From the IMG/VR virus record IMGVR_UViG_3300030099_006264, positions 1-42,641 of that record: a DNA stretch of 42,641 nt; one strand, 5' to 3'. The notes beneath the pieces are model-generated. The model was not told where the DNA came from. It saw only the letters and a program-made list of their open reading frames with translations, and searched no databases. The position numbers were made by a program, and so were the translations under genes. Every line of letters starts with the position of its first letter. Within the stretch, counting starts at the first letter, position 1. Shown here piece by piece: positions 1,365 through 39,968 of the stretch. The stretch is from a virus.

Positions 1365-1794
1365 ACGTAAACGTGGTCCTGTTAGAAGTAAAAAAGTTAC
1401 TTTTGACGGGATTACATTTGCAAGTGGTTTAGAGCGTTATATGTATCAAGCATTAAAAAAAGCTAAAATACACGCCGATTATGAAGGCTGTACGTTTACT
1501 TTACAAGAAAGTTTTATGTTTGATAATGAAAGTTTTGAAAGACAAAGTAATGGTAAAGGTGATATGGTTAATAGAGGTTGTAAAAAAATATTATCAATAA
1601 AATATACGCCAGACTTTATAGGTCATAACTTTATTATTGAGTGTAAAGGTAGAGCTAACGAGAGCTTCCCAATACGTTGGAAAATGTTTAAAAAATATGT
1701 AAATCACAAGATGAAACATGTAACTCTATATAAACCTCAGAACCAAAAAGAATGTGATAAAGTAATAGAATTAATAAATGAAAGAAATAAATAA
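1348..1794 (+). CDS. T7 endonuclease I-like Holliday junction resolvase
   Basis: With the ATG at 1348 the product is 148 aa, the size of T7 gp3 endonuclease I. A TTG at 1330 would add six residues but lies deeper in the previous gene. The PD-(D/E)XK site is visible: E29 in a GLERYMY helix, D89 in YTPDF, then E98 and K100 in an ECKGR strand, the same order as E20, D55, E65 and K67 of T7 gp3. A basic KKKFKRKRG N-terminus fits DNA binding. The enzyme would cut branched replication and recombination intermediates before packaging, and may help degrade host DNA. The 3' end overlaps the ribonucleotide reductase gene by 17 bp. Confidence 0.82.
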   Translation: MKKKFKRKRGPVRSKKVTFDGITFASGLERYMYQALKKAKIHADYEGCTFTLQESFMFDNESFERQSNGKGDMVNRGCKKILSIKYTPDFIGHNFIIECKGRANESFPIRWKMFKKYVNHKMKHVTLYKPQNQKECDKVIELINERNK

Positions 1795-3649
1795 CAATAT
1801 ACTCTCGGATATAACAGTACACATGAAGTACGCTAAATATATACCAGAGTTACAACGTAGAGAAACTTGGACAGAACTAGTTGATAGAAATAAAGCTATG
1901 CACATACGTAAGTACCCAAGTTTAAAAAATGATATAGAAACTTATTATAAATATGTATATGAAAAGAAAGTATTACCAAGTATGCGAAGCCTTCAGTTCG
2001 GTGGTAAACCGATTGAGATATCTCCCAATAGGTTATATAATTGCGCTTACTTACCTATCGATCATATTGATAGCTTTAGCGAATGCATGTTTCTTTTATT
2101 ATCTGGTTGCGGGGTAGGTTATTCAGTGCAGTTGCATAATATAAAAAAATTACCAGAAATAATTAAGCCACATGCTGTTAGAAAACGTAGGTTTGTTATT
2201 GGTGATAGTATTGAAGGCTGGTCTGATGCTATTAAAGTGCTAATTAAATCTTATATGGGTAGTAAAAGATCTTCAAAAATAAAATTTGATTATTCAGATA
2301 TAAGACCTAAAGGCTCTTTATTAGTAACGTCAGGTGGTAAAGCGCCAGGCCCACAACCATTAAAAGAGTGTATTTTAAAAATCAAAGGTATATTAGATGC
2401 AAAACAAGACGGTGAAAAACTTAAAAGTATTGAAGTGCACGATATTGTTTGTCATATTGCTGATGCTGTATTAGCTGGCGGTATACGTAGAGCAGCACTT
2501 ATATCTTTATTTTCAGCTTATGATGAAGAAATGATTTCGTGTAAATCAGGTAATTGGTGGGAAACAGATCCACAAAGAGGTAGAGCTAATAATTCAGCTG
2601 TACTTATGAGGCATAAAATAACTAAAGAGTTTTTTATGGACTTATGGAAACGTATAGAGTTATCTGGTTCTGGTGAACCTGGTATATATTTTAATAACGA
2701 TAAAGACTGGGGAACAAACCCTTGTTGCGAAATAGCATTAAGACCTTTTCAGTTTTGTAATTTATGTGAAGTTAACGTGTCTGATGTAGATACACAGCAA
2801 GAATTAAACGATAGGGTTACAGCTGCTGCTTTTATAGGTACGTTACAAGCTGGTTACACAGAGTTTCATTACCTTAGAGAAGTTTGGCAAGAAACTACAG
2901 AGCGTGATGCTTTACTAGGTGTGTCAATGACTGGTATTGGTAGTGGCAAAGTTATGAAGCTTGATTTAAAAGAAGCTGCTAGTCAAGTTAAAATGATGAA
3001 CAGAATAGTGGCTAAAACTATTGGTATTAATCCAGCTGCACGTACAACATGTGTTAAACCTGCAGGGACGACATCTCTGGTGCTTGGAACATCATCGGGT
3101 ATTCACGCGTGGCATAATAAATATTATATCCGTAGGATGCGTGTAGGTAAAAACGAAGCTATATATAATTATTTAAAAATTAATAATCCAGAACTTGTAC
3201 AAGATGAATATTTTAGGCCTCATGATACTGCTGTTATAGAAATACCACAAGCAGCGCCAAAAGGCTCTATTATAAGAACAGAGTCTGCTTTTGATTTATT
3301 AGAACGTGTTAAAAAAGTAGCTACAGAGTGGGTTGCAACAGGACACAAGTCTGGTAGTAACACACATAATGTATCAGCTACAATAAGTTTAAAAGAAAAA
3401 GACTGGAGTGAAGCAGGTGAGTGGATGTGGAATAATAGAGATAAATATAATGGTTTATCAGTTTTACCTTACGATGGTGGTACATATACTCAAGCACCGT
3501 TTGAAGATATTACAAAAGCTAAATATGATGAAATGACAAAGCTGCTTCAAGATATAGACTTAACTAAAGTAGTAGAGTTAAATGATAATACAGATCTATC
3601 AGGTGAACTGGCTTGTGCTGGTGGGTCTTGCGAAGTAACAAGCCTATAA
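1778..3649 (+). CDS. nrdJ: Class II (adenosylcobalamin-dependent) ribonucleotide reductase, monomeric type
   Basis: A 623-aa single-chain reductase that makes deoxyribonucleotides. The key residues are present: C89 in NCAYLP (one of the active-site redox pair), the catalytic N314, C316 and E318 in NPCCEI (thiyl-radical Cys with its Asn and Glu), a PAGTTS loop, and a C-terminal C613-x4-C618 pair that would re-reduce the active site. A radical-generating subunit is absent from the window and the layout resembles the B12-dependent Lactobacillus leichmannii enzyme, so the radical should come from adenosylcobalamin taken from the host. It is shorter than the roughly 740-aa L. leichmannii enzyme. 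The ATG at 1778 overlaps the resolvase; an ATG at 1823 is an alternative. With the MazG and thymidylate-synthase-family genes it forms a dNTP supply operon. Confidence 0.9.
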   Translation: MKEINNNILSDITVHMKYAKYIPELQRRETWTELVDRNKAMHIRKYPSLKNDIETYYKYVYEKKVLPSMRSLQFGGKPIEISPNRLYNCAYLPIDHIDSFSECMFLLLSGCGVGYSVQLHNIKKLPEIIKPHAVRKRRFVIGDSIEGWSDAIKVLIKSYMGSKRSSKIKFDYSDIRPKGSLLVTSGGKAPGPQPLKECILKIKGILDAKQDGEKLKSIEVHDIVCHIADAVLAGGIRRAALISLFSAYDEEMISCKSGNWWETDPQRGRANNSAVLMRHKITKEFFMDLWKRIELSGSGEPGIYFNNDKDWGTNPCCEIALRPFQFCNLCEVNVSDVDTQQELNDRVTAAAFIGTLQAGYTEFHYLREVWQETTERDALLGVSMTGIGSGKVMKLDLKEAASQVKMMNRIVAKTIGINPAARTTCVKPAGTTSLVLGTSSGIHAWHNKYYIRRMRVGKNEAIYNYLKINNPELVQDEYFRPHDTAVIEIPQAAPKGSIIRTESAFDLLERVKKVATEWVATGHKSGSNTHNVSATISLKEKDWSEAGEWMWNNRDKYNGLSVLPYDGGTYTQAPFEDITKAKYDEMTKLLQDIDLTKVVELNDNTDLSGELACAGGSCEVTSL

Positions 3650-11557: not shown

Positions 11558-11929
11558 TTAAAAATCGCTCATTATAATTTCATCAATAGTATTTTGTACT
11601 TCTTTTCTTGTGGCCGCTATAGTAAAACTAAGATCTGCTTGATAACGTTTTACTTCTTCACCATTAAAAACTATAATTGTAGGCACTACAACTATATTGT
11701 ATTTTTTAGCCCAATCACCTTTATCTATATTTATTCTTTTTACACCACAATCATTAAGTTTGTTTAACCAGTCAATACTATTAGCCTTGTTCCATTCAGC
11801 ATTAAATTCTACTACACATATATCAGTTTTACAAATGTTTTGACAAGACGCTAGTTGAGCCGTCAACATAAAAACTATTATTAATGTATAGACAATATAC
11901 TGAGGCCATTTAATATCTTGTTCTTTCAT
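11558..11929 (-). CDS. Thioredoxin-fold lipoprotein without the CxxC active site
   Basis: 123 aa. A hydrophobic N-terminal segment ends in a good lipobox, L26-A-S-C29, so it should be a lipoprotein outside the inner membrane. The rest follows a thioredoxin fold: VVEFNAEW strand, a helix, INIDKGDWAKKYNI, then VVVPTIIVFNGEEV with the cis-proline. At the active site the usual EWCGPC is EWNKAN, so both redox Cys are gone. It cannot act as a standard disulfide reductase and may be a binding or chaperone-like module. Cys33, Cys38 and a Cys in NDCGV could still pair. It lies 1 bp upstream of the Cys-rich repeat protein, suggesting the two act together outside the cell membrane. Confidence 0.75.
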   Translation of the reverse strand: MKEQDIKWPQYIVYTLIIVFMLTAQLASCQNICKTDICVVEFNAEWNKANSIDWLNKLNDCGVKRINIDKGDWAKKYNIVVVPTIIVFNGEEVKRYQADLSFTIAATRKEVQNTIDEIIMSDF

Positions 11930-12254: not shown

Positions 12255-15200
12255 TTAATCATGGTAGTAGCAATAACCGCTTTTAGAAGTAGTCATCATT
12301 TTACATCTTTGACCATTAGTTCTCCTACCTTTACATTGTTTTTGTTCACCAGATTCACTTTGTTCAACCTCATCATGTATTGTACAAAAATTATTACCTG
12401 ATAAAGCTTTGTTTCTACATCTGTTACCACTTCTACTTATAGCTGCACAAATACCATCTTCTTCACGTAGTTTAATATTTTCTTTTATTTCGTCACTATT
12501 TTTAAACTTAGGTGATTTTACTATTTGTTTAGCTTTTTCTACATCCTTGTTCTCAATACCAACATCCCATCTACTCCAACCTAAACCAACAGCTACTCTT
12601 TGCCACCATGCATTTTCACTATCAAAAGCAGCTTTTAAATTTTGTACTTTTCTATAAAGTCTGTTAACAGGCAAGTTGGTAAGACCTTCAACACCACTAC
12701 TCACGGCGTCCCACAGTGGATTATCTATATCCCACTTGCTCATATATTTCATGACATCTTTATTCCACTTCTCTGTATTCTCACTACTAGTTAGTTTTCT
12801 AACCTTTATACCTATAGGTGGAGCTATTTGTAATAACTCTGGCCAAGCAGGTGTTTTAAACCAAGAGTCACTTTTAGCGTTTTCAACACGTTTTCTAGTA
12901 TAGTTCATTAATGTAGAAAGCACAGCTCCAGGTAAACCAGAACCCCTTAATAAACTGTCTAAAGTACCATATAAAACTCTATCTTTTTTTGTTTTAAAAA
13001 ACCTTTCATTTTTCTTATCTTCTTCATCATCGTCTTCAAACATCATTGCAAATAAAGCCTGTTGTAAACCATAAAATATAATACTTTGAACAGCACCATA
13101 ATATATTATCCTAGATATATTAGCGGTGTCACTAGCCCCTTGATCTTTATATCCTTTTGATATTCTTCTATTTGTTAAGTCAAGATAAGATTTTTTAACT
13201 ATTCTAGCGTACTGAGATGTTACATTTTGAAAAGCAAATATCCATCTACCAAGTATAGAACGTTGTAACTGCGAAACCATATCTGGTCTAGCAGACTGCT
13301 GTGTTTCTTCTGCTATAGTTTGAAAATCTAAAAATGCTTTTGATTCTGCTTCTTTTTGGCTTAAACCATCTTTTATATACGAATTAACTCTGTTTCTATA
13401 AAAACTAGCACCACCAATTGCTATAGCAAAACTATCACCAAGCTGTGTAGGTAAAAAACCTAAATCTAATAAATGTTTTAATGCAGCCCTAACTTTACCA
13501 GACATTGTTTTAGGTTTAGCGACTTCTGTAGCTATTTCGTTAGCATTAACATCAAAAGCAGCACCAGAACGTCTTTGTTTTAAAAAGTTAGAGTTAAACA
13601 ACTTAGAAAAATCACTCCAAAACTGTCCTTGATCTGCAAATCTGGCCGAAGCTTTAAATATATTGTTATCACCAAAGTTTAAAAAGTTAACAAAAGATAA
13701 TTGCTGTAGTATAGCTGACCTTGCATTAAAGAACATTGTTGCAGCTACAGAACCATTAACCCAGTCTAACCATCTATTAACAGCTTTGTTTTGACTAATA
13801 GGCCTATTATTACCCGTTATAGTAGCTTCTAATACATCTTCTAATGCTAACCTAAAATCTCTACCGTATATAGCTTCTATTTTATTTAAATTATCTCTTG
13901 AAAATATAATGTTAGAGTTTTCTATAAACTCATTAAAAAACTTTTTTCTACCAACTCTATTTGTAGCGTCTAATAAATCAAGTCTTATACTACCAACCTG
14001 CCAGTTTTCTGTAGGTTTTACATAACCTTGTTTAACAGTAGATATTTTACCTATCATATCAGCATACTGTTTTAAACTAGCTTGAGAATTTACAATATTT
14101 ATAAGTGCAACTTGTTGATTGTTGTCTAACCCAGGTATTTTAAAACCAGCTTTGTTAAACAAATAAACTCTTACGGCATCTTCAAAAGTAAAACTACTAT
14201 TAGGTAAGTTTTTATTTAATATACTTACCGTATCAGGCATCCTTTTTCTTAGTGCTTTATAATTAACTGATATAGACTGTCTATGATTATTTAAACGTCT
14301 ATAAGCTTCGTTTAAAGGTTTTAACAGTGTTGTTTCAAAAAACCTCATGTGTCTATTACCTCTTTCACCTTTGCCCATAAAGTTATATAATAAACCTCTA
14401 AAATCTTCATGGTTAGGCGGTATAAAAAATCTAAACTGACCTTTAGTCTCACCTTTTTTAGCTGCTTCTGCAGCACTAAATATTTTTAAACGATCAACAC
14501 CAGAAACATCTCTTAATATAGCGTTAAAGTAATTACTCATTTTACTTTTACTAAAATCAACTCTAGCTTGTTGTACTTTTGATTTAACGTCAAATTGATT
14601 TAACATGTTCTGTACAGCTTCTACATTTTGTATCGCATCATCGGCAAAATAAAAGTCATTATAACCTTCTTTAGCTTTGTTTAAAACCCAAGATGCTTTA
14701 GCATCAGCTGTTGAATTACCAAGGCCTGTTATATTTTTTAAGGGTATATCTAAACCGTTTTCTTTTAAAAATCTTTTTATTGCAGGAGCAGATGCTTGTG
14801 GTCTAGCTGTTAATATAAACATATCTTTAGTGCCAAACTTACCAGCAAGCTTTTTAGCCTTGTTTAATAAAGGGGCTGGTTTACCATCAACAACTTTATT
14901 AAACTCAGAAAAATCAAACTTGTAACCAAGTCCTAGTAAACTTTCATAAGTACTAGCGTATTGCTCTGGTGTTAAAGTACCAGTAGTACCATCTGGTTTT
15001 GTATATCTAACTAAAGATTTTGTTGTAGCTAAAGTATCATCAAAGTCTAGTATAGTGATACCTTTGTTTGGATTATTAACAGACTTTGAAAATAAATGAG
15101 CTTCTTCTAAATTTTGATTATTAAAAGCAGTAAATAAATTTTCAGGTAAAGACTCTATAACCCCTTTCTCGTATTGTTCAGCAAAAAAGTTAACAACATC

Positions 15201-18200
15201 AGCGTTGTAAGTATATCTTGTACGGCCACCTTTAAACTTTAAACCAGCTTTATTTAAAATAACATCTATTTCTTTAGGTAACACATGTACATAAGCTGAC
15301 TCAATATATTGATTTAGTTCAGCTTGACTTGATTTACCTTTAATAGTATTTTGTATTTGATTAACCATATCAGACACAGTTATCTCATGTTCTAATACTA
15401 AGTCTTTTGATGTTAAGTTAGAGTCTTTGTTAATTTTTACACCTAACTTGTACATTTTTCTTATAGTACCTCTTTGATCAAGAGACATTAAATCTACTAT
15501 AGCTAGTTTTTCAGCCGTACTTAAATTAGAGTCTAATATATTTTGTAAATATGTTCTAGCGTCATTAGCTTGCTCGTTTACTAAATTAGCTAAATCCTGA
15601 TTATCTCTAACATTGTTTTTAATATTCTCTATGTTTTCATACATAGGTACTGGTACAAAGTTACCATCTTGATTATAAACAATTATCTCACCATCTTTAA
15701 CTTCTTGTAATTGATAGTTTTCATTAACAAACTTGTCACCAAATAAAGGTTTTAATACTCTTTCTATAAATATTCTGTTAGTAGTAAGACCATCAATCAT
15801 ACCACTTCTAGTTGATCTACCTATATTTTTTAAGTATTCATTTATTATTCTAACTTTTTCAGCGTCATTTGTATTTTCAGTTAACTGTTGTAAATATTTT
15901 TTAGAAACTTCAAAACCTATTTTTCTAACTTGAGGCATTGTTGTGTTCTTAATAAATCTAACAAAGTTTTCTAAACTACTAAAGTCTGCTGTAAGCGACT
16001 CTCTTGTAGGTGGTAGCTTTCGTATTATAATATCATAAACGACTTTTGGTGGTAAGTTATTTTCAAAAGCAGCTTGCATCTCTTGTAATATACCATTGTT
16101 ATACATGTACAACTCTGACTCTTCAACGTCTTCATTGTTTTGTATACGTTTTTCTATTTCTTGTATTTTACCCTGTAAAGCAGCTAAAGGTTTTTTACGA
16201 TATTGCAACTCTGTTAATTGAAGTTGAGAGTTATAATAGCTTTTAGAAAACTGTACATCAATATCTCTATTTATTTTAGATGACAAATCAACTATATCAA
16301 GCTCTGCCTCAAACTCTTCAGTTAATAACTTTTTAACTTCTGGCTCTTGTCTAACCTCTAACAAAGCATCAAATACTAAACCTTTTGATATGTACTTTGA
16401 TATACCATCTTTTCTTGTGCCTTTTAAACCAGATCTAACCTCAAAAGTTTCACCTGTTTTTTCGTTTGTTCTTTGTATTTTTAAAGGTTGATCAAAAAAA
16501 CTAATAAACTGCTCAGGTGTAGTTTCTTTTTTAACATATAAATTAACACTTTGGCCCTTGTCTATTTTCTTTAATTCGTCTTTTGGTAGTAAGTTATCTC
16601 TAACAGCATCTTCTACTTGCTTTTTAGATGTTAGTTTTTGTTTAAACTCAACAAAAACTTTTTCATTATCAGCAACTTTTCTTTCTAACTTAACAAGATC
16701 AGAAGTAAAAACAGTTTCTAATATAGCTTCTTTGTTTTCTCTTAATGTTTTAAAATAAACTTTATCAGTACCTAAAGTATCTTTTACTATTTTAAAAAGT
16801 TCAGTATATCTACCAGATGTAAAACCTTTTTCACCAGCATATTCATTAGATAAAATCTCTATTATTTTTGTAGCTCTTTGTTCTTTATTATCTATACCTC
16901 TTGTTTTTTGATAAGCCATTATTAAGCTTTGTCTAACAGAGTCTTTTACTTTATTGTAAACATCACTATCATCTTTAATACCTAGTGATTGTCTAAGTTT
17001 ACTTTTTCTTACTTTTTGTTTTTTGTTTTTATCAGCTTCTCTTTTTCGTTGAGCCTCAAGAGACATGTTCATATTTTCAAAGTCTTCTAAGGCAGAATCT
17101 TTTTCTGCGGCTACTTGTACTTTTATATCACCCTCTTTTGTTGTTTGTCCAACTTCAACTGTAGGCGCTGTTATCTGGCCTTCTGTTAAAGAATTAAAAG
17201 CTTGTTTAGCTTTATTACCTATTTGTGGATTTATCCAACCAAAAAGCCCGTCTGGATTTTTTCTTTCTGGCTTATAGTTTTTTATGTGTGGTAGTAATTC
17301 TGCGTAAGTTGTATCTAAAAAAGTTTTATCATCAATACCTTCATGTGGTTTTGCTAATATAAGACCGTCTAATAAACCTTGTTTTTGTATTACCTCAGCA
17401 ACGTCTTTACCGTACACTTGCCAATAAGCATTACCACCTAAGTCCTCAAAGTTTATAGTATCACCACCTGTCTTTTGACTATCAGTAAACTCTTTACCAT
17501 ACTTATTTACTAAATCTTGTTTTTGAGCATCAGTTAAATCTCTAGTCTTAGATAATTGTACTTCACCTGGTTCAGCTAAACCAACATCTATCATATCAAC
17601 AAACTGGTTTCTAAGCTTACCTTTTTTTCTATCAGAAACATATTCTTTTAAAAAGTTCCTAACATCATCACCAGTTTTAAAATTTAAATTTTTATACCCA
17701 GTGTTTTTACCGTTTATTAATCTTTGAAAAAAGTTTTTAAGCTTAGTAATAATACCGTCTTGCAAGTTACCTTTTAATTGAGCATCACCGTAAGCAGTTA
17801 TATATTCTTCAGCATATTCTACAAAAGCTTTTTCACTACCATCTTCGTTGTACCTATAGTTATTGTCTATTCTTTCTTGTACAACACTTAACTCTTTATC
17901 AGTTAAACTGTCTTTAAAATCTCGTAATATCTGCTCGCCTTCCTTTGTCAATGTAGTTTCTACAGTACCGCCCGTAATTTTGTCTGTAACAGTTCTTGCA
18001 GTTCCACTTCTAAGCGAAGATCTAACAATAGCATGTAAAACCTCATGCGATCCAACCGTTACAGCATTGTTTCTAGCAGCAACAGTTTCATTTATTAAAA
18101 CATCTTTACCTAGTATTAAACCATCTACGTTTTGGAGCTGCTCTGCTGTGTATTGTTTTTTACCTAACGCTTCTAATCTTTGGTTAACTTGTGTTAAAAA

Positions 18201-19700
18201 ATCTGACTCTTGAGAAACAACATTTATTTTTAAACCGTTAGTTCTACTAAGTGGCTCAACAAAAGTTCTAACATCATCGTTAAGCATTTTTTTATTAGCT
18301 TCATTTTTAATAAAATTAACTTTTTCGTTTTCTAATTTTATATTTTCGTTTAAACGTTGCGTAGCGTAGCTATATTGTTTTTCAGTTATTATTTTTTTAT
18401 CTAACTGGCTTTTCAAGCCCTCTATTTGTGATACATAAGATTTTTTATTTTCATAAGCTTGAATTATGTCATTACCTTCTTGTTCTGTTATATATGTAGA
18501 TTTTTTCCTAACACTTTTAACGTAATCTTTAAACTCTTTTTCTTGCTTTTTTATTTCTTCGTCAATAAAACTTTTAGTTTCTGGAGTGTGTGCTTTTAAC
18601 TTTTCTTGCTGTAAATCACCTATATTGTTTATATATTCATTTATTCTTATATTATCATTGTCATCTCTAAAAGCTAAGTTTGTTTCTCTACCAATACCAG
18701 ACACAGTAGTACCACCAATAAAACCTTGTACAAAACTTTCAGCAGCATCCATAGACCACAAAGATTTTACACTTTCTTCTACAGCGGTTTGGTAGTCATT
18801 TCCTTGTGCTAATGATTTGTTTAAGTTTTCTATACCATACTGAAAAAATTCTGTAGCACCTTCTCTATTACCAGTCCTTAAATATTGTACAAACCTTTTA
18901 GCTCCAGCGGTACGAGCTCGGTTCATTATTGAATTAGTTATACCTTTAACACCTACATATTCTAAAGCGGTAGCACCAACACCTAAAACAGTTGGTATTG
19001 TCATATTGTCTTCACCGTTTTCATAAAGCTTACGCATTTGAGTTTCAAAATCATCATCAGGATATAACGATTTAGCTTTTTCTGCATTAAACTCAGTGTA
19101 CATTGGCGCTATTATTTGAGCTGGTAAACTAGCTCCTCTAGTAAAATAAGCTGGAACAACAGTGGTTAAAGTGCTTACTACAGCGTTACCAACACCAGAA
19201 GCAATGTCTACAACATCACCGTCTCTAAAGCCACCAATAACACCTTCACCAGTGTATAAATTAGATGATTTTTCCCTTAAATTATATAACTCATTTTGTT
19301 TTTCTATCAAAAAATCATCGTAAACATCACCAATATCATTATCATCAGCAAGTTCATTAACATCACCTCCACTAGCTATAAAGTCCATTACTTTACCACC
19401 AGTAGGATCTACTTTGTTTATTAAATCTCCTAAATAAACTTGTGTACTTTTAAAAGCTACTGGCAAACCAATTTCAACATTTTTCTCAAAAACATTACTT
19501 AACTGTACACCAAACCTTTCTAGCGGATTAAGCTTTTCTAGCTCTTGCTTGTATATTTTATTATATTCTTCTTGATACTCTACCTTAGCCTTGTGTTGTA
19601 CTTTTTGATATTCTTTTTGAAAAATATTTTCAAGTTCATCTCTGTCGTACTCGCCAGACTCTATGTAGGGTCGCATTATTTCTAGTAATTCTTCCTCCAT
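12255..19700 (-). CDS. Giant polyvalent virion protein (HExxH peptidase-like, HAD-like and zinc-knuckle motifs)
   Basis: 2481 aa, by far the largest gene here. Hydrophobic helices near residues 165-190 lie in an N-terminal region with EFFQYGIENLN typical of phage internal proteins. H552-EVLH-556 is a zinc-metallopeptidase motif. An HAD phosphatase signature follows: DFDDTLA (D1552, D1554), T1631 in FILTARP, and D1687-D1688 in FADDA. Around 1985-2175 (NARSAILQQLS to the FAFQNVTSQYAR region) it resembles domains of large polyvalent phage proteins. A membrane-like helix lies near 2190-2215, next to an acidic run. The last 64 residues hold two zinc knuckles. Such proteins are usually carried in the capsid and injected with DNA; that is inference. 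No RNA-polymerase DxDxD motif was seen, so this is not the crAss-type virion polymerase. Confidence 0.8.
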   Translation of the reverse strand: MEEELLEIMRPYIESGEYDRDELENIFQKEYQKVQHKAKVEYQEEYNKIYKQELEKLNPLERFGVQLSNVFEKNVEIGLPVAFKSTQVYLGDLINKVDPTGGKVMDFIASGGDVNELADDNDIGDVYDDFLIEKQNELYNLREKSSNLYTGEGVIGGFRDGDVVDIASGVGNAVVSTLTTVVPAYFTRGASLPAQIIAPMYTEFNAEKAKSLYPDDDFETQMRKLYENGEDNMTIPTVLGVGATALEYVGVKGITNSIMNRARTAGAKRFVQYLRTGNREGATEFFQYGIENLNKSLAQGNDYQTAVEESVKSLWSMDAAESFVQGFIGGTTVSGIGRETNLAFRDDNDNIRINEYINNIGDLQQEKLKAHTPETKSFIDEEIKKQEKEFKDYVKSVRKKSTYITEQEGNDIIQAYENKKSYVSQIEGLKSQLDKKIITEKQYSYATQRLNENIKLENEKVNFIKNEANKKMLNDDVRTFVEPLSRTNGLKINVVSQESDFLTQVNQRLEALGKKQYTAEQLQNVDGLILGKDVLINETVAARNNAVTVGSHEVLHAIVRSSLRSGTARTVTDKITGGTVETTLTKEGEQILRDFKDSLTDKELSVVQERIDNNYRYNEDGSEKAFVEYAEEYITAYGDAQLKGNLQDGIITKLKNFFQRLINGKNTGYKNLNFKTGDDVRNFLKEYVSDRKKGKLRNQFVDMIDVGLAEPGEVQLSKTRDLTDAQKQDLVNKYGKEFTDSQKTGGDTINFEDLGGNAYWQVYGKDVAEVIQKQGLLDGLILAKPHEGIDDKTFLDTTYAELLPHIKNYKPERKNPDGLFGWINPQIGNKAKQAFNSLTEGQITAPTVEVGQTTKEGDIKVQVAAEKDSALEDFENMNMSLEAQRKREADKNKKQKVRKSKLRQSLGIKDDSDVYNKVKDSVRQSLIMAYQKTRGIDNKEQRATKIIEILSNEYAGEKGFTSGRYTELFKIVKDTLGTDKVYFKTLRENKEAILETVFTSDLVKLERKVADNEKVFVEFKQKLTSKKQVEDAVRDNLLPKDELKKIDKGQSVNLYVKKETTPEQFISFFDQPLKIQRTNEKTGETFEVRSGLKGTRKDGISKYISKGLVFDALLEVRQEPEVKKLLTEEFEAELDIVDLSSKINRDIDVQFSKSYYNSQLQLTELQYRKKPLAALQGKIQEIEKRIQNNEDVEESELYMYNNGILQEMQAAFENNLPPKVVYDIIIRKLPPTRESLTADFSSLENFVRFIKNTTMPQVRKIGFEVSKKYLQQLTENTNDAEKVRIINEYLKNIGRSTRSGMIDGLTTNRIFIERVLKPLFGDKFVNENYQLQEVKDGEIIVYNQDGNFVPVPMYENIENIKNNVRDNQDLANLVNEQANDARTYLQNILDSNLSTAEKLAIVDLMSLDQRGTIRKMYKLGVKINKDSNLTSKDLVLEHEITVSDMVNQIQNTIKGKSSQAELNQYIESAYVHVLPKEIDVILNKAGLKFKGGRTRYTYNADVVNFFAEQYEKGVIESLPENLFTAFNNQNLEEAHLFSKSVNNPNKGITILDFDDTLATTKSLVRYTKPDGTTGTLTPEQYASTYESLLGLGYKFDFSEFNKVVDGKPAPLLNKAKKLAGKFGTKDMFILTARPQASAPAIKRFLKENGLDIPLKNITGLGNSTADAKASWVLNKAKEGYNDFYFADDAIQNVEAVQNMLNQFDVKSKVQQARVDFSKSKMSNYFNAILRDVSGVDRLKIFSAAEAAKKGETKGQFRFFIPPNHEDFRGLLYNFMGKGERGNRHMRFFETTLLKPLNEAYRRLNNHRQSISVNYKALRKRMPDTVSILNKNLPNSSFTFEDAVRVYLFNKAGFKIPGLDNNQQVALINIVNSQASLKQYADMIGKISTVKQGYVKPTENWQVGSIRLDLLDATNRVGRKKFFNEFIENSNIIFSRDNLNKIEAIYGRDFRLALEDVLEATITGNNRPISQNKAVNRWLDWVNGSVAATMFFNARSAILQQLSFVNFLNFGDNNIFKASARFADQGQFWSDFSKLFNSNFLKQRRSGAAFDVNANEIATEVAKPKTMSGKVRAALKHLLDLGFLPTQLGDSFAIAIGGASFYRNRVNSYIKDGLSQKEAESKAFLDFQTIAEETQQSARPDMVSQLQRSILGRWIFAFQNVTSQYARIVKKSYLDLTNRRISKGYKDQGASDTANISRIIYYGAVQSIIFYGLQQALFAMMFEDDDEEDKKNERFFKTKKDRVLYGTLDSLLRGSGLPGAVLSTLMNYTRKRVENAKSDSWFKTPAWPELLQIAPPIGIKVRKLTSSENTEKWNKDVMKYMSKWDIDNPLWDAVSSGVEGLTNLPVNRLYRKVQNLKAAFDSENAWWQRVAVGLGWSRWDVGIENKDVEKAKQIVKSPKFKNSDEIKENIKLREEDGICAAISRSGNRCRNKALSGNNFCTIHDEVEQSESGEQKQCKGRRTNGQRCKMMTTSKSGYCYYHD

Positions 19701-20715: not shown

Positions 20716-21381
20716 TTATTGTGTTGCGTTACCTAAAGAAGAAAGACCACCACTAGCTATACCAAGCCCAGCTTGTAGTGCCCCTGTAAACATTGCGTCT
20801 ATAGCTTGATTTTGCTGGTCAACAGCCTGGTTAGCAGAGTCAGCCCTTGCCATTGCTAAAGCTCTCAACTCATCTTGTTTTGCAAACTCTGCTTGTTCAA
20901 CCATCTTTCTACCTTCTCTTTCAAGCATATCTCTTTGTTGTTCGCCTTTAACTTTCATGTCAGCTAATCTAGATTGTTCAGCTAAAGCTCTAGTTTGATT
21001 AGCTTGTTCTTGAGCAGCGATACTAACAGAAGCTTGCTGTGCTTGCCTAACACCTTGATTAGCTAACACCTGTGCTAAACCAGCAACACCACTACCACCA
21101 GCCGCTCCTTGCATACTTTGCATTATATTAGCCATAGCTTGTTGAGACTGTTCTTTTTCAAACTGAGCTTGTTTTAAATTAACAGTTTGATCTTCATAAA
21201 CATTTTCCATATTCTCATACGGATTTTTAACACCCGCATAAGGATTAGTCATTTTTCTATCTTCAAATTGTTCTATTTGAGCTTGTAAATCTCTGTTAGC
21301 TTCTCTTCTCTCTCTTCTAAGTTGTTTTCCACCAAATAAAGCTGTAATAAACTTAGCCGGTGAATTATTGTAATTTGCCAT
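20716..21381 (-). CDS. Ala/Gln-rich internal virion (ejection core) protein, 221 aa
   Basis: The N-terminus MANYNNSPAKF carries the NSPxK leader found in other small proteins of this operon. A basic KQLRRERREANRDLQ helix and a long Ala/Gln/Glu coiled coil (residues about 70-190) follow, then a Gly/Ala-rich, weakly hydrophobic tail (TGALQAGLGIASGGLSSLG). This resembles in character the internal core proteins that T7-like phages inject (gp14 type), which have similar size, Ala/Gln content and a terminal hydrophobic stretch. Similarity is compositional and positional, not by a shared motif. Confidence 0.6.
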   Translation of the reverse strand: MANYNNSPAKFITALFGGKQLRRERREANRDLQAQIEQFEDRKMTNPYAGVKNPYENMENVYEDQTVNLKQAQFEKEQSQQAMANIMQSMQGAAGGSGVAGLAQVLANQGVRQAQQASVSIAAQEQANQTRALAEQSRLADMKVKGEQQRDMLEREGRKMVEQAEFAKQDELRALAMARADSANQAVDQQNQAIDAMFTGALQAGLGIASGGLSSLGNATQ

Positions 21382-21419: not shown

Positions 21420-21806
21420 TTATTTACTACTAGCTGTTACTTCAGCACCTACAGAATATATCTCTGCTTTTTCTCTAGAGTTATTTCTTAATTCAACTTG
21501 GCTGTAGTAGCCAACTAAACCTGATAAGTTTATTTCACTAGCTTTAGCAAACATTAAAAAATCATCTTCACCAGGAGTTGTGCCGTTAACAAAGCTTTCT
21601 TCACACTCTATAGTAGTTTCATCAGTAGCATCGTCATACTCTATACCAACAATAGTACCTATTATTTGAGGTGTTGTGTTTTGTCCTAATTGAAAAGAGG
21701 CTGTAAAACCATTTAACAACGATGTCTTTACATAATAAGCCATATCACCTAGTTTTAATGAATCATTAACCTCGGTTAAATCGCCTTGAAGTCTTACTAA
21801 TATCAT
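21420..21806 (-). CDS. Small structural protein, 128 aa
   Basis: An acidic, strand-rich protein. It has an IVGIEYDDATDETTIECEE segment, then an NLSGLVGYYSQVELRNNSREKAEIYSVG stretch and an EVTASSK end. The GYY.....NNS..KAE pattern near the C-terminus is one I associate with small uncharacterised virion proteins of marine phages. It starts 1 bp after the stop of the 439-aa protein and is followed by a 38 bp AT-rich gap. It probably belongs to the tail or connector; no function can be named. Confidence 0.58.
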   Translation of the reverse strand: MILVRLQGDLTEVNDSLKLGDMAYYVKTSLLNGFTASFQLGQNTTPQIIGTIVGIEYDDATDETTIECEESFVNGTTPGEDDFLMFAKASEINLSGLVGYYSQVELRNNSREKAEIYSVGAEVTASSK

Positions 21807-21807
21807 A

Positions 21808-23127
21808 TTATGATCCTGTTCCTTTTGTTAATAATCTATCCATATCTAAAAATATATCTTTTTGTGTTGGTGCAAAACTAATAACACCAATAAAACCTGA
21901 TATAAAAATTTTGTTACTACAATTATCAATATAAACTGTTGTGTTTACTTGTATTGGTCTAGCTGAAGTACCTACTAAATCTGCATTTGCTATTGTAATT
22001 GCACCTTGAGTTAAGCCATCTGTGTTATCTACAGAAGCTATTGTAGTTTCGCTTGTATTTATACTTTTATTTAAACCTCTTATTCTAACTTTAGCACCAA
22101 CACCTATACCTGTCATACCATTTACATTTATAGTACCACCTGCTGAAATAGTACTTGTAGAAGCTGTTCTAATAGTAGTTTCAATTGGCTCTAGTTTAAG
22201 CAAAGTATCTTTAGCAAAAACATTAACACCACAAGAGCTAAATATTAAACCAGGACCGTAAGCTCTAAACGTCATAGTAGCACCATGCTCAAAAGGTGAG
22301 TTAGTTGAAAAAGTAATAGTTTTAGTATTAAAATCTATATCTCTTATTGTAGTTGAGCTAGCAGGTTCTGTTGTTGTTTTGTGGTATTTTAATTCCATAC
22401 CAACTACTAAGTTAGTTGTATCAGCAACAGTAATAACGTTACCACTAGCGCCATCTCCAGCTGCATTACTTACAACGTTTTCAGTAGTTTCAAAAAACAA
22501 ACTTTTAGCTCCCCACTTGCCTATACTTGGATCACGTGTTGATGCGTTTTTTATAAAATAACCAAAATCTGTAATACCAGAAGTTACTGTTATTTGTTTG
22601 TCTTTTAAATTTAAACCTTCACTAAAATCTTTATTAGATTTAGTTTTGTTATCTTTAGTTAAAGTACCAAGTGAAGTATTTGTTATACCTGTACCAACTG
22701 CAAAAAACCTAATAGAAGTGTCTGGTTGTTGTGTAATAGTTAGCTTTTTGTAAAGCTTATCATCAGCAAAAAATGTGTTATTATGAGCATCAGCATGTAT
22801 ATTAAAAACATAAGTATCACCACTACTAGCTGGTATTTCGTAACTATATGAACCCATAGTTAAATTTTTAGCTCTAGACTTAGCTGTTATTGCAGCTTCA
22901 AACCCGTTTGTTTCAAAATTATAATTACGATTATCAGATGTTCTAGTTATAGTTAAACTAAAAGTAGCATCTTTACTTCCTTTAACATTTAATAAAATAC
23001 TTTGTGCTTTAGCTGTTAAACTTGTTTTATTAAAAATAAATTCTTGTATTATATTTTTACCACTTTTTCGTTCTTGACTAGCAATGTATGTAGGTGTATT
23101 TACGCTTGACGTTGTATGATATGACAT
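21808..23127 (-). CDS. Beta-rich tail/structural protein, 439 aa
   Basis: Rich in Thr, Ser, Asn and Gly with repeated short strands, as in tail or baseplate beta proteins. Two internal modules (about 225-290 and 320-390) share the layout ITVAD-TNLVVGM, a TTI turn and a TITFS strand. The same layout appears in the 485-aa protein at 29144-30601. The ATG at 23127 lies 1 bp after the stop of the 2002-aa tail protein, so the two are probably assembled together. The function is inferred from composition and position only. Confidence 0.62.
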   Translation of the reverse strand: MSYHTTSSVNTPTYIASQERKSGKNIIQEFIFNKTSLTAKAQSILLNVKGSKDATFSLTITRTSDNRNYNFETNGFEAAITAKSRAKNLTMGSYSYEIPASSGDTYVFNIHADAHNNTFFADDKLYKKLTITQQPDTSIRFFAVGTGITNTSLGTLTKDNKTKSNKDFSEGLNLKDKQITVTSGITDFGYFIKNASTRDPSIGKWGAKSLFFETTENVVSNAAGDGASGNVITVADTTNLVVGMELKYHKTTTEPASSTTIRDIDFNTKTITFSTNSPFEHGATMTFRAYGPGLIFSSCGVNVFAKDTLLKLEPIETTIRTASTSTISAGGTINVNGMTGIGVGAKVRIRGLNKSINTSETTIASVDNTDGLTQGAITIANADLVGTSARPIQVNTTVYIDNCSNKIFISGFIGVISFAPTQKDIFLDMDRLLTKGTGS

Positions 23128-35066: not shown

Positions 35067-37472
35067 TTATCTTGGGCCAAACTGTGACATATCACCAATA
35101 GCCTCTCCACCTAATATATCATTACCTGCAGACTCAAAGTTTTTAGGTGGTTTATTGTTTTTTCTTTGGTCTATCAACTGACTTTGTTGAGTTGCTTGTA
35201 TTTTAGTTCTTTTATCTTTACGATCTTCTTTTTGTTGTATTGATTTAGACTTCTTTTCTTTTTCAATACCTTGTATTTGCATGTTATACTGAAACTCTTG
35301 TTCCATTAACATTTTCTTTATTTGAGCTTCTTCGTAAAGTTTCTTTATTTCAAGATTATTTTTAGCTTGTTCTAGTTGAACTTGTGTTTGTAATAAAGCT
35401 TGTTGTTTTTGTACTTCTGCTTGAGCAGCTACTTGTTGAGCTTGTGCATTTGCCTGGGCTTGAGCTTGCATGTTTTCTTGTTGTATTTTTTGATCACGAG
35501 CTATTTTCTTTCTTCTTTTTATTTTTAACAATTGATTTGCAAGTTTTATATTTTTAATATCTCTTAAATCAATAGCATCTTCTAAATCAATAGCACCCTG
35601 TGATAACGAAGCTTGTATATTGTTTTCTAATATTGCTTTTTCTTCATCATCTGGACTTAATTCTATAAATATTCCAAAGTCATATAAATGTAGTTGTGTC
35701 ATTTCAAACAAAGTAGCAACACTATGGCTACCTATTTTTTGTATAAAAGCTTCTTTAGTAGGTGAGTACTCTATAATATCAGATATTCTTAATGATAATT
35801 GCTCTGCTGTTTCTTGAGTTAAAAATAAACCACCTTTTAATATATGTCTAGTAGCTGTATTAGAATTAGCTGCTGCCATTTTTTGCACGCCAACTAAGGC
35901 TTTTGGATCTGGATTAGCAGCATCTCTAGCTTCGTTTAAACCTGTAGTATCTCTAATCATTTGTAAATAATAATTATAGTTATTTACAAGAGCTTGTATT
36001 TTGTTACCACCACTACCGCTTGTTATTTCTTGTATAGGTACTTTACCAGGATTCATATCACCTTCACTAGTAAAACTTCTACCTATAACACTACCAGTTT
36101 GAAAAAACATATTTAAAGCTTCTTGTGGATTATAGCTAGTACCATTACCTAAATCTACTTCAGCTAAACCATCTGCGTCTAAATAAACACCATCTGGCAC
36201 CATACGTGACATTACTTGTTGTAGTTTTAAATGTGTCAACTGTATCATATCAGCAAAACCAGTAATTCTACTTACAAGTGATTCAATACGTCCTTCATAC
36301 ATACGAGGAGCACATATAGCGTAATTCATTTTAACTTTACTATAATCGCTTTTTGGCCTCATCATGTTTTTAGCCATACCCCAGCTTAAAAGTTTTTTAG
36401 TACCTAAAACCAAAGCGCCTTCATATAAAACTTCTATTTTTCTAGTTTCCATAGTAAAATTTTCACTTTTACCAGGATTAAACGTATCGTCTTTAGCTAT
36501 AGCTTTATCAGCACCAGTTGCTGTTTGTTTTATTTTATAAACTTCACCCATGTAAGACTTATAATTAAAGTATAATATTTTTACTTTATTATTATCGTCT
36601 CTTTCTTCTCTATATTGTTTTTCGTTATACTTACCGTAATTTTTATTATTATATTCTGTTATTTCTTTTAAATCTTTTTCTTCTAAATGTGGAAATTGTT
36701 TTACAAGTTCATTAACAGGTATAGTTTTTACTTCGCCACAATAGTATATATCTTCAAAGTAAGGTGATTCAGTGTGTGAATATACTAGATTTTCTGGATC
36801 TACATATTCTATCTTAACACCTTCTGAAGTATTAAAAGTTGTTTTAACAGCTCCAATACCTAAAACAGCTAAGTCATAATAAAATCTTTTTGAAACAAGA
36901 TCATATCTATTTCCTTCCATTAAAGTTTTTATAGCTTGTTCTTCAGCTATTTCAACAGACTGTTTATAATTTAATTGCATGTGAATATCTAACTCTTCTT
37001 GAGAATCAGGTAATAAATCTGGACTTTTATTAAATAAATCCATACCAAAATTATCTTTAACAAAAAGTTTTAAATCTCTAGTTCTCATGTCTTCCATGAT
37101 TTTATTCATGTACTGAGTTCTTTTACTTACACCAAAAGGATCTTGAGAATAAACCTTAACATCATAAACTCTTTCAGATATACCATTAACAACTATATCT
37201 ACAAACTTTGGTATTATAGGTACAGGTTTCCAGTCTAAGTTTAAATAGCTTAAGTCACCATTTATAGATAATTCATTTTTATATTTTTCTATTGGTTGTT
37301 CTCCTCTAGCATATAATCTTAAATTTCTAAAATTATTTCTATTATAAATATATCTATTTGAGTAGTTGTCTTTATCAAACCACTCGCCCTCTATAGCCTT
37401 AGCTATCTTAAGCCCATACTCATAGCTTAATTTTTCTGCATCACTAACTACTTGACTTGGAAATTGCCTCAT
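35067..37472 (-). CDS. Portal protein (P22/crAss-like size class)
   Basis: 801 aa. The N-terminal 110 residues have a NFRNLRLYARGEQPIEKYKN segment and YLNLDWKPVPIIPKFVDIVV, a signature I associate with crAss-like and marine podovirus portals. A DNRNN-type loop, the LKLQQVMSRMVPDG helix near the channel and a long Gln/Ala/Glu coiled coil (about 660-760, QAQANAQAQQVAAQAEVQ) follow, probably a barrel or crown. It starts 1 bp after the stop of the large terminase gene. The portal forms the dodecameric ring at one capsid vertex through which DNA enters and leaves. Confidence 0.83.
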   Translation of the reverse strand: MRQFPSQVVSDAEKLSYEYGLKIAKAIEGEWFDKDNYSNRYIYNRNNFRNLRLYARGEQPIEKYKNELSINGDLSYLNLDWKPVPIIPKFVDIVVNGISERVYDVKVYSQDPFGVSKRTQYMNKIMEDMRTRDLKLFVKDNFGMDLFNKSPDLLPDSQEELDIHMQLNYKQSVEIAEEQAIKTLMEGNRYDLVSKRFYYDLAVLGIGAVKTTFNTSEGVKIEYVDPENLVYSHTESPYFEDIYYCGEVKTIPVNELVKQFPHLEEKDLKEITEYNNKNYGKYNEKQYREERDDNNKVKILYFNYKSYMGEVYKIKQTATGADKAIAKDDTFNPGKSENFTMETRKIEVLYEGALVLGTKKLLSWGMAKNMMRPKSDYSKVKMNYAICAPRMYEGRIESLVSRITGFADMIQLTHLKLQQVMSRMVPDGVYLDADGLAEVDLGNGTSYNPQEALNMFFQTGSVIGRSFTSEGDMNPGKVPIQEITSGSGGNKIQALVNNYNYYLQMIRDTTGLNEARDAANPDPKALVGVQKMAAANSNTATRHILKGGLFLTQETAEQLSLRISDIIEYSPTKEAFIQKIGSHSVATLFEMTQLHLYDFGIFIELSPDDEEKAILENNIQASLSQGAIDLEDAIDLRDIKNIKLANQLLKIKRRKKIARDQKIQQENMQAQAQANAQAQQVAAQAEVQKQQALLQTQVQLEQAKNNLEIKKLYEEAQIKKMLMEQEFQYNMQIQGIEKEKKSKSIQQKEDRKDKRTKIQATQQSQLIDQRKNNKPPKNFESAGNDILGGEAIGDMSQFGPR

Positions 37473-37473
37473 A

Positions 37474-39690
37474 TTAATTCTTTATTATTCTTGAAATACC
37501 GCCTGAATTATTATACTTAGCGATATTTATGTTTAATTTAGGTTTTTCTATTTTTACGTTTGGTCTATATAAGTGTCTATTGCAAGCCATAATAGCAAGC
37601 CCACTACTTATAGTAGCATCAAATTTTGTTCTTTTGGTTATATCAAATTTAGCCCAGTCGTTCAAAGTTCTATTAAAATATATATTACCATAAACACCAT
37701 CTTCTAAATGACCAACATGCTGTTGTATATACATTTCTATAGCAGCGGCATGAGCTTGTTTTATATCTTCACTAGAGTTTGGTATACCACCTATTTCTTT
37801 TTCTGTTACAGAAAGTTTATTCCAAATTTTATCTGGCCTATTCATACTGTAACCTCTGTAGCCTCTACGTCTTAAATGATATAATAATCTAGGTTTGTTA
37901 TTTTCTGCAAGCAACGGCATACCATAAAATATTAATGCCATTAACACATCTTCAAAAAATATCTCTGCTGTTTGTGGTCTAGATATATATTCTAAAAACA
38001 TGTGGTTAGGTGGCGCGTCTTCCATACTAAACTTTGTTAGCCCGTGTAAAGAACCGTTAGAACCTCTACCATCTACAGTTCCTGATATATCGTAACTATC
38101 ACAACCAAAAGCCCCCATGTGCTCGTTACCAGGATATTTTATACCGTTTTTAATTACAACTCTATTTTGTAAATGTGTAGGTGGAAACCAACTAATGTTA
38201 AATCTACCTTTTGGATCTGGATAAAATATTACTTGTGTGTCTTTTACGCCATTTAACCATTGAAAGTTACCAACGTTAATATTTCCTTGAGCACCAACAC
38301 CATCGTTGTAATCTACTTGTTCATATATTTTAACTAAGTTAAATATACTGTTTTTAGCTTCATCTCTAAACGCATGCTCTTCAGTTCTTGGAAACTGTCT
38401 GTAAAACTCGTTTAATGCGTCTTGATCATTTTTTAAACCTTCAGCTTCGTTATTCCAGTGATCAATTATACCGTAATCTATTAGTTCACCATCGGGTCCG
38501 TATACATCATTATCTGGGTTATTAAATACTGGTTGTCCGTATTGATCAATAAATCCTTCATAGTTCCATTCCATTGGTATAAAAAAAGAATATAAACCAG
38601 ACTTTGTTTGTCCATTACGATTTCTTTTTGTAACGTCTGAATCATAGTATAGCTTTTTAAAATTACTACCACCTTTATCCAAAGAGTTAGATGTACTACC
38701 CATCATACACTTGCCTACAACTCTAGCACCTAACCTTAAACAAGTTTTTGTAACTCGCCAGTTGTTTAATATATTATCTGGTCTTTCCCACTTACCGCTT
38801 TCATCGTGAACTAATAAGTTAAGCTTTTCACCGTCATAGCTATTGTCACCTGTGTTTTTCCAATCAATAGTAGTATCAAGTCCAACCAGGTCTTCCTGCT
38901 TTTCGTTTGCAACAATTTTTTTACGCGTAAACTTACTCGCAGGAACACGATAAGCAAGTTCAGACTTAGGTCTGTCCATACCGTCTTGTATCGGTTTAAA
39001 AAAGAAAGGATAATTAACCGATATTGGAACAACTTTGTCTGTAAACATTTTTTTAGCATCCGCACCACTTTTTGATAATATACCATATCTACTATCACTT
39101 GATATTGTAGCTAAGTTAACTGTTTCTGCCGAAGACATAAAACTAAATCCACTACGTCTGTTTTTAAGATAACACATACCGTAGCATCTTTTGTCTGCTT
39201 TACAAGCTTCCCAGAATATATAAAACAACCTATTAGCTTCTCTAAAATCAGGTGCACCTACATCTATTTTACTCCATTGTAAATACATATAATGAGCGCC
39301 TGTTATGTATGTTGGTTTTTTATTATTTATAAACCAAAATCCTTCTTCTCTACGTTTAAACTCTTCATCTATATAATCATACCACTTTTCTTTTTGTTCT
39401 TCAGGATATGATCTCCAATCAAATATATTTTTAAGTTTACTTAACTCTTTAGGATAATCTATTTTTTTCCACTTATTTTCTTGCAATCCATGTACTTGCA
39501 TAGGCACAGGTGGTAGAGCAATGTGAACATTTTGCATTTCAAGTATTTCACCGATTTTACCAGTTTTTGATATAACAATAATACCATGTTCTTTATTATA
39601 TCCATATTTCCATTTTTTACCACGGTTTAAACGTGTGATTGTTGTTTTTTTTATAGGCGTTACAACCTTAACTAAACTTTGATTATACAT
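37474..39690 (-). CDS. Terminase large subunit (packaging ATPase-nuclease)
   Basis: 738 aa. The ATPase half has a Walker A-like loop at 174-184 (YLKNRRSGFSF, with K176 and R178-R179 in place of GxGKS) and a Walker B strand ending in acidic residues near 290-297 (LNLLVHDESG). A coupling-type LGARVVGKCMMGSTSN follows. The nuclease half begins near residue 525 with GAFGCDSYD, whose Asp is the likely first metal ligand, and later segments include FDATISSGLAIMA near the end. The atypical P-loop is shared with crAss-like terminases as I recall them. It drives ATP-powered packaging through the portal and cuts concatemers. The stop and start with the portal gene are 1 bp apart. Confidence 0.87.
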   Translation of the reverse strand: MYNQSLVKVVTPIKKTTITRLNRGKKWKYGYNKEHGIIVISKTGKIGEILEMQNVHIALPPVPMQVHGLQENKWKKIDYPKELSKLKNIFDWRSYPEEQKEKWYDYIDEEFKRREEGFWFINNKKPTYITGAHYMYLQWSKIDVGAPDFREANRLFYIFWEACKADKRCYGMCYLKNRRSGFSFMSSAETVNLATISSDSRYGILSKSGADAKKMFTDKVVPISVNYPFFFKPIQDGMDRPKSELAYRVPASKFTRKKIVANEKQEDLVGLDTTIDWKNTGDNSYDGEKLNLLVHDESGKWERPDNILNNWRVTKTCLRLGARVVGKCMMGSTSNSLDKGGSNFKKLYYDSDVTKRNRNGQTKSGLYSFFIPMEWNYEGFIDQYGQPVFNNPDNDVYGPDGELIDYGIIDHWNNEAEGLKNDQDALNEFYRQFPRTEEHAFRDEAKNSIFNLVKIYEQVDYNDGVGAQGNINVGNFQWLNGVKDTQVIFYPDPKGRFNISWFPPTHLQNRVVIKNGIKYPGNEHMGAFGCDSYDISGTVDGRGSNGSLHGLTKFSMEDAPPNHMFLEYISRPQTAEIFFEDVLMALIFYGMPLLAENNKPRLLYHLRRRGYRGYSMNRPDKIWNKLSVTEKEIGGIPNSSEDIKQAHAAAIEMYIQQHVGHLEDGVYGNIYFNRTLNDWAKFDITKRTKFDATISSGLAIMACNRHLYRPNVKIEKPKLNINIAKYNNSGGISRIIKN

Positions 39691-39968
39691 TATTTAGACC
39701 TTCCTTCTGCAAATCCTTTGAATACAGATTTTTTAATTTCTTCTGGTGCTTTACCATTTATTAAGTTTTCTTCTTCTTGGATTCTATTTAATATTTCAAA
39801 CGCATCAAATATAGCTAGCTTTTTTGTAGCTGCTGCGTTTTTTAATCTATCAGCTGAAACATCATCATCCGTGTTAGTAATTATTTTTTCTTTAGCAACA
39901 TTAATTAATTCTTCAACTGCTTTGTGCCCAGCTTGGATTATAAGCTTCTTCGTCTCCTTGATATTCAT
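39690..39968 (-). CDS. Small helical protein upstream of terminase (possible small terminase)
   Basis: 92 aa, nearly all helical: a KKLIIQAGHKAVEELINVAKE helix, a DDDVSADRLKNAAATKKL segment and an FDAFEILNRIQEEENLI helix. Its stop overlaps the large-terminase start by 1 bp, the classical place for a small terminase, and the size is within the range for short versions. Its first 56 bp overlap the GroES-like gene in another frame, a long overlap for this operon, so a start further inside (no good Met nearby) cannot be excluded. DNA-binding motifs are not evident. Confidence 0.55.
   Translation of the reverse strand: MNIKETKKLIIQAGHKAVEELINVAKEKIITNTDDDVSADRLKNAAATKKLAIFDAFEILNRIQEEENLINGKAPEEIKKSVFKGFAEGRSK

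Follow-up and report, generated by a model that had tools for sequence, protein, structure and literature searches.

What does a single 2481-aa protein that combines a metallopeptidase motif with a phosphatase domain do for an uncultured phage, and is it carried in the virion? We addressed this question for IMG/VR record IMGVR_UViG_3300030099_006264, the whole 42,641 nt (42.6 kb) of which is referred to here as the window. An earlier note on this DNA had placed the reading frame at 12255-19700 and had picked out H552EVLH and the HAD positions D1552/D1554, T1631 and D1687/D1688. The frame is there, on the minus strand, and opens with an ATG at 19700. All of the residues named in the note are found at the stated positions, and the observation as a whole is confirmed and is stronger than originally put. 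Scans of the entire protein against Pfam and PHROG gave almost no matches, and domain detection needed segment-wise scans together with relatives of the giant protein. The explanation towards which we lean is that this is a virion-delivered polyvalent protein whose HAD domain probably heals nucleic-acid ends. The features on which the argument draws are collected in Table 1.

Table 1. Positions of the features discussed, in window coordinates unless another locus is named.
Feature	Position	Strand	Basis
Gene for the giant polyvalent-type protein (2481 aa), closing the virion module	12255..19700	-	synteny with MS/MS-proven giant virion genes
Variable N-terminal region (residues 1-440) with a coiled coil and a hydrophobic, Gly-rich helix	18381..19700	-	blastp, weak profile matches
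Zincin-like metallopeptidase domain, residues ~486-705	17586..18245	-	AF2 model and domain alignment
H552-E-V-L-H556, candidate zinc-binding motif	18033..18047	-	residue check, alignments
E632, candidate third zinc ligand	17805..17807	-	invariant 75/75 and 52/52 in alignments
HAD phosphatase domain, residues ~1545-1715	14556..15068	-	catalytic residues 81/81, phrog_415, dN/dS 0.008-0.13
HAD motif I, D1552-F-D1554-D-T	15033..15047	-	invariance
Flap turn, residues 1569-1572, site of the nested kinase in relatives	14985..14996	-	comparison with at least 44 kinase-bearing relatives
HAD motif II, T1631-A-R1633	14802..14810	-	invariance
HAD motif III, K1668	14697..14699	-	invariance
HAD motif IV, D1687-D1688	14637..14642	-	invariance
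Constant all-helical C-terminal region, residues 1736-2400	12501..14495	-	in 69/70 relatives; BFVD PolyVal/LPD matches; Gundel_1 gp074 profile match
Two C-X9-C-X10-C-X2-H zinc-binding-type motifs, residues 2418-2480, accessory tail	12261..12449	-	motif check, DUF5763
221-aa virion-module gene	20716..21381	-	counterpart of phi18:3 gp120, phi40:1 gp099, elemo gp20, Gundel gp072
128-aa gene	21420..21806	-	counterpart of phi18:3 gp115 (MS/MS virion protein), prob 97.3
Portal protein, lineage marker	35067..37472	-	phrog_6547, 1.3e-149
Terminase large subunit, lineage marker	37474..39690	-	phrog_6681, 3e-172
Stand-alone HAD, example	L110:10025-10528	n/a	marine Bacteroidetes single-cell genome

The HAD marks an abundant marine phage lineage

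The window's portal and virion proteins match PHROG head and packaging families, and its terminase is 64% identical to that of Manatee Spring podovirus MW202828 and at most 45% identical to those of Flavobacterium elemo, Cellulophaga and Tenacibaculum phages. The sister isolates belong to Pachyviridae, Pervagoviridae and Elemovirus, and PMC8776804 describes two isolates, Gundel and Calle, as podoviruses. The best explanation for the window's origin is an abundant uncultured lineage of marine short-tailed phages, kin to the Cellulophaga, Flavobacterium and Tenacibaculum phages.

Scanning IMG/VR with the HAD segment confirmed at least 465 relatives, from which 80 loci were kept for comparison. 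The HAD lies within a giant ORF in all 80, and the complete ORFs among them (n=71) span 2068-3448 aa with a median of 2865. A terminase of the window type, 73-99% identical, was present in 40 of the 40 HAD-bearing contigs tested. To avoid circularity, contigs were also fetched by their portal and capsid gene and not by the HAD. Eighteen of these extended as far as the giant gene, and all 18 encode the HAD; the ORFs that contain it measure 1810-4520 aa, one of them clipped by the contig end. The domain was absent from all five sister isolates, and a scan of INPHARED with the HAD segment returned one weak relative in total. Since the HAD occurs in 18/18 contigs chosen without bias and in 0/5 sister isolates, it marks one abundant uncultured lineage, and across that whole marine lineage it forms the protein's constant core; it is no quirk of one phage.

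The HAD domain is under strong constraint

The motif set of the HAD superfamily is complete (DxD motif I, Thr motif II, Lys motif III and acidic motif IV), and the signature proposed earlier holds across the relatives, with D1552, D1554, T1631, R1633, K1668, D1687 and D1688 invariant in 81/81 sequences. The HAD is also the most constrained segment of the protein: its dN/dS is 0.008 against the nearest relative (L001), 0.13 against L004 and 0.10 against L002, where the whole protein gives 0.13, 0.22 and 0.41. An invariant catalytic set combined with low dN/dS makes a dead or purely structural HAD unlikely, and we consider the domain very likely to be catalytically active.

We assign this putative phosphatase to the HADs on the full motif set, on phrog_415 and on matches of its stand-alone relatives to HAD-clan Pfam models. 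The phrog_415 (polynucleotide kinase) family is matched by the HAD segment at 1.4e-5, by the record at 2.5e-7 and by relatives at up to 5e-8, and the stand-alone relatives match PF00702 (2.4e-5) and PF12689 (1.9e-4). An AF2 model of the HAD with the C terminus (pLDDT 71.9, pTM 0.63) is of moderate confidence over the HAD part, at pLDDT ~50-85 per block, and has a predicted strand order that fits the Rossmann-like HAD fold. Foldseek against BFVD matched the HAD alone to small phage proteins over 161-163 columns with an rmsd of ~3 Å, Foldseek of the combined model against the PDB found no match, and PDB sequence searches with the HAD found nothing significant.

Stand-alone HADs 36-38% identical to that of the window occur in marine Bacteroidetes single-cell genomes, and in four of these (L103, L104, L109 and L110) a 167-aa HAD lies directly downstream of a DUF2779 gene. 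These cellular proteins suggest a possible origin for the phage domain, and their position beside DUF2779 is compatible with nucleic-acid processing.

A kinase nested in the HAD and the likely substrate

In four of the 18 unbiased contigs, a 189-aa P-loop kinase with the motifs GGAGSGK (Walker A) and VVVDGT interrupts the HAD about 20 residues past the nucleophile, at the flap turn of the model, where HADs usually accept C1-cap insertions. A scan for kinase-bearing HADs yielded 44 loci; at least 44 contigs of the lineage carry the nested kinase (loci L278, L279, L281, L286 and L291-L334). In 41 of the 44 loci from the scan the checked HAD motifs are complete on either side of the kinase, and the other three are accounted for by a contig end, a reading gap or a variant motif I (DADDT). 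The window protein itself has no kinase at the flap turn and no large HAD cap, so that the combination of HAD and P-loop kinase in one chain, as in Pnkp, is found in at least 41 relatives and not in the window protein. On a tree of the C-terminal region, at least seven gains or losses of the kinase fall on well-supported branches.

In independent searches, the two domains each hit the proper half of one Pnkp1 structure, 4xrp, the kinase at E 0.28 and the HAD with its stand-alone relatives at E 0.13, matches that are weak and not significant alone. Because both domains agree on 4xrp and the HAD also matches phrog_415, a polynucleotide end-healing role is the leading guess, and we would tentatively name nucleic-acid ends as the substrate of the HAD. 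HAD phosphatases fused to polynucleotide kinases in jumbo phages have been assigned to RNA repair (PMC7824862). An RNA ligase domain (PF09414, 2e-9) was found in one kinase-bearing contig of the lineage (G060, which holds L299, at 66137-66613) and in none of the other 31 of 32 lineage contigs searched, a distribution that weakens the case for a complete T4-type tRNA repair route.

Alternatively, the protein may be delivered in the virion but its HAD, with or without the kinase, may target a small molecule such as a nucleotide, a sugar nucleotide or a signalling nucleotide; a zeta-toxin-like UDP-GlcNAc kinase would be an example, and the effect would be blocked defence signals or a changed host metabolism. 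Many members of the HAD superfamily are nucleotidases, and one BFVD relative is named UDP-N-acetylglucosamine kinase. Moreover, Zeta_toxin scores above its cut-off in 18/18 kinase-bearing records, so the kinase substrate could be a nucleotide sugar. However, AAA_33, a polynucleotide-kinase-type P-loop model, is likewise above cut-off in all 18 and gives the lower E-value for 16 of them, and the matches of the HAD to phrog_415 and, weakly, to Pnkp1 point the same way. The lack of a large cap in the window HAD, usually, we infer, a trait of enzymes with large substrates, and the proximity of the cellular HADs to DUF2779 also argue against a small-molecule target, which on balance we think unlikely.

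A zincin-type site in the first third of the chain

In a shuffled copy of the protein, HExxH would occur with a probability of 0.0035. It is present exactly once in 66/71 complete related ORFs, against a chance expectation of 0.64. In the zincin domain alignment (A4), the sole invariant columns are H113, E114, H117 and E193; rows were picked by HExxH, and the later Glu, E632 in the window protein, played no part in that selection. The model places this Glu downstream of HExxH on a C-terminal helix, and H552EVLH together with the invariant E632 thus fits a zincin-like metallopeptidase, which makes the metallopeptidase motif of the earlier note a real, zincin-type site. The AF2 model of the domain (pLDDT 81.5, pTM 0.76) has the order beta-alpha-beta-beta-alpha(HExxH)...alpha(E), the same strand and helix order as is given for polyvalent zincins in the text of PMC5512222. 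The zincin model found no match in the PDB by Foldseek, and a PDB sequence search with the domain gave nothing significant. Structure prediction in segments, the check that had been proposed for this protein, therefore gave models for both the zincin and the HAD with the C terminus, but neither matches the PDB. From its conserved site, we regard the zincin domain as likely to be active. Four relatives (L030, L044, L047 and L059) have HHDxxH instead of HExxH, with Asp replacing the catalytic Glu.

Variable ends around a constant core

The block of residues 1551-2350 aligns in 69/70 relatives, the zincin in about 41 and most other parts in 1-18. The N-terminal region (residues 1-440) was aligned by blastp in just 1-16 of the 70. 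Among relatives, N-terminal domains include a phage lysozyme (L045, 6.5e-15), an SLT domain (L060, 2.1e-7) and GH108 (4.4e-7), all of which would fit passage of the protein through the cell envelope. Several alternative short N-terminal segments, for example of YTxExLxxxAxxxGxDFDxY-, EEIVxRMIDAGES- and NEEYLxxLHxxL-type, are apparently swapped among related giants (L013-L092). That these mini-domains serve as packaging tags on other virion proteins was considered and dropped, with one weak match in its favour.

After the HAD comes an all-helical block of about 650 aa that is constant across relatives. Compared with BFVD, this helical C terminus resembles phage proteins named PolyVal ART, MuF or LPD (E 6e-7 to 3e-3), with one weak structure match to a protein named LPD38, in line with the polyvalent-type C-terminal region claimed for it. 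The Pfam model MPTase-PolyVal (PF18818) matched 0/46 records, and LPD38 (PF18857) also matched 0/46, yet the latter model is silent in control genomes as well. In three relatives (L041, L058 and L082), an insertion of ~190-460 aa interrupts this otherwise length-constant region.

The zinc knuckles described in the earlier note have to be recast. The only six cysteines of the protein all lie in C-terminal motifs (2418-2442 and 2456-2480) that read C-X9-C-X10-C-X2-H twice and not the CCHC pattern C-X2-C-X4-H-X4-C. The tail scanned alone matches DUF5763 above the cut-off (33.8 vs 26.3 bits), and it aligns in just 15-18 or so of the 70 relatives. The reading as a multi-enzyme polyvalent protein gains from the constrained zincin-type and HAD sites, the wall-degrading N termini of relatives and the position of a giant virion gene; several disparate enzymatic domains are indeed combined in one giant polypeptide.

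Position and remote homology link the protein to virions

The giant gene sits among late virion genes, as polyvalent genes do, and shares its position with the giant virion genes of sister phages, of which those for phi18:3 gp123 and phi40:1 gp101, at the end of their modules, are annotated as virion proteins from MS/MS. Two genes before the giant lies a 221-aa gene whose best matches among 17 candidates are exactly the four positional counterparts (prob 80-50). In profile comparisons the C terminus matched Gundel_1 gp074 (prob 92, E 6e-7; shuffled and reversed controls <1%), which is annotated as a structural protein and is itself homologous to phi18:3 gp123 and phi40:1 gp101, but in a different region. 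Weaker profile matches tie the N terminus to the giant of the Manatee Spring phage (prob 89.5) and the N-terminal region to phi18:3/phi40:1/elemo (prob 85.7). Searches of the whole giant against the isolate giants by tblastn and phmmer found no direct homology, and only profile methods and synteny connect them. Together, position and remote homology support virion presence well, and we think it likely that the giant protein is virion cargo, a view built on shared gene order and on partial homology to the sister giants, none of which has a HAD.

A protein in the virion could be mainly mechanical, an ejection or internal core protein of the kind seen in T7 (gp16) or in N4-type phages (the large ejection protein), with the HAD acting in virion assembly or on proteins and not as an injected effector. 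The all-helical C terminus, the podovirus kin, a virion module in which several small genes precede the giant gene at its end, and lysozyme or transglycosylase N termini as in T7 gp16 would all accord with this role, and ejection proteins can be giant (PMC10925440). Yet it would leave unexplained both why a fully conserved HAD active site is found in one lineage only and why a kinase has come or gone inside it so repeatedly, and we judge it improbable. HAD or Pnkp activities normally belong to cytoplasmic proteins, but that this is a non-virion cytoplasmic multidomain enzyme encoded beside structural genes by happenstance seems to us very improbable in view of the exact synteny with MS/MS-proven virion giants, the homology to Gundel gp074 and the wall-degrading N termini of relatives.

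A model for the giant protein

In the model that we favour, delivery in the virion with a HAD that heals nucleic-acid ends, the giant protein would be carried in the particle as a polyvalent ejection or cargo protein. The HAD and the helical C-terminal block would anchor and deliver it, while the variable N-terminal part would bear effector domains, among them ones that breach the cell wall. Cleavage of the chain may fall to the zincin-like domain, which would cut it into working pieces, either during assembly or after entry, and an active HAD phosphatase would enter the host along with the DNA. Its likeliest job would be Pnkp-like removal of 3'-phosphates from nucleic-acid ends, with nicks in phage DNA or cleaved RNA as the substrates in view, and in the kinase-bearing relatives the polynucleotide-kinase-like domain within the HAD would add the corresponding 5'-kinase activity.

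The nucleic-acid repair enzymes known from phages, T4 Pnkp among them, are synthesised once infection has begun. If the model is true, a particle-delivered repair phosphatase would work before phage gene expression, against nucleases that fire at once. More speculatively, an abundant marine lineage might carry an end-healing enzyme in its virions, built into a giant polyvalent protein as its constant core, some members with a nested Pnkp that pre-emptively undoes nuclease-based defence from the start of infection. The HAD and helical C terminus also give hundreds of uncultured marine phage contigs a defined protein core, and a kinase nested in the cap site of a HAD and repeatedly gained or lost is an unusual enzyme architecture.

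Comparison with known systems

The window protein shares with the phage polyvalent proteins of Iyer et al. 2017 (PMC5512222), as far as the text of that paper describes them, its giant multidomain form, its place in a virion module and a zincin-like HExxH...E site, to which may be added the lysozyme and transglycosylase domains of relatives and a C-terminal fold resembling PolyVal/LPD proteins. It differs in that neither haloacid nor phosphatase occurs as a word in the main text of PMC5512222, and in the failure of the two Pfam models above to match; among the papers searched, none combined polyvalent proteins with haloacid dehalogenase. The giant protein thus remains within the polyvalent class, as a variant with a lineage-defining HAD and, in some members, a nested kinase.

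The closest positional equivalents, phi18:3 gp123, phi40:1 gp101, elemo gp18 and Gundel_1 gp074 (Pachyviridae/Pervagoviridae/Elemovirus), have the same gene position, neighbour and giant size, with weak homology to the window giant in N- or C-terminal regions. The elemo and Gundel giants carry HExxH, phi18:3 gp123 and phi40:1 gp101 do not, and none of the four has a HAD, unlike the window giant. T4 Pnkp, bacterial Pnkp1 and phrog_415 share with the window protein a HAD phosphatase bearing DxD, T, K and DD. At least 44 relatives also have a P-loop kinase in one chain with the HAD, and both domains give weak profile matches to Pnkp1. However, the kinase of this lineage is nested inside the HAD flap and not in tandem, both domains are buried in a giant ORF, and the window protein has no kinase. 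The giant virion RNA polymerase of N4-type phages and the cargo proteins of PhicrAss001 are large, mainly helical proteins of short-tailed virions that leave the particle before the DNA or together with it (PMC10925440, PMC10172136). The window giant is likewise large and mainly helical, and presumably carried in virions, but no RNA polymerase domain was detected in it, and the activities predicted for it are those of a peptidase and of a phosphatase.

Other features of the window

A 56-bp DNA similarity at 22599-22654 was judged to be chance. A strand switch occurs near 3.8 kb, and a ribonucleotide reductase gene (1778-3649, phrog_367) lies on the strand opposite to the virion module. Two genes downstream of the giant, a 123-aa ORF (11558-11929) is thioredoxin-like by a weak Pfam match. 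Near the terminase, at 39913-40503, is a gene for a GroES-type co-chaperonin (phrog_13932), and the sister isolates have one too.
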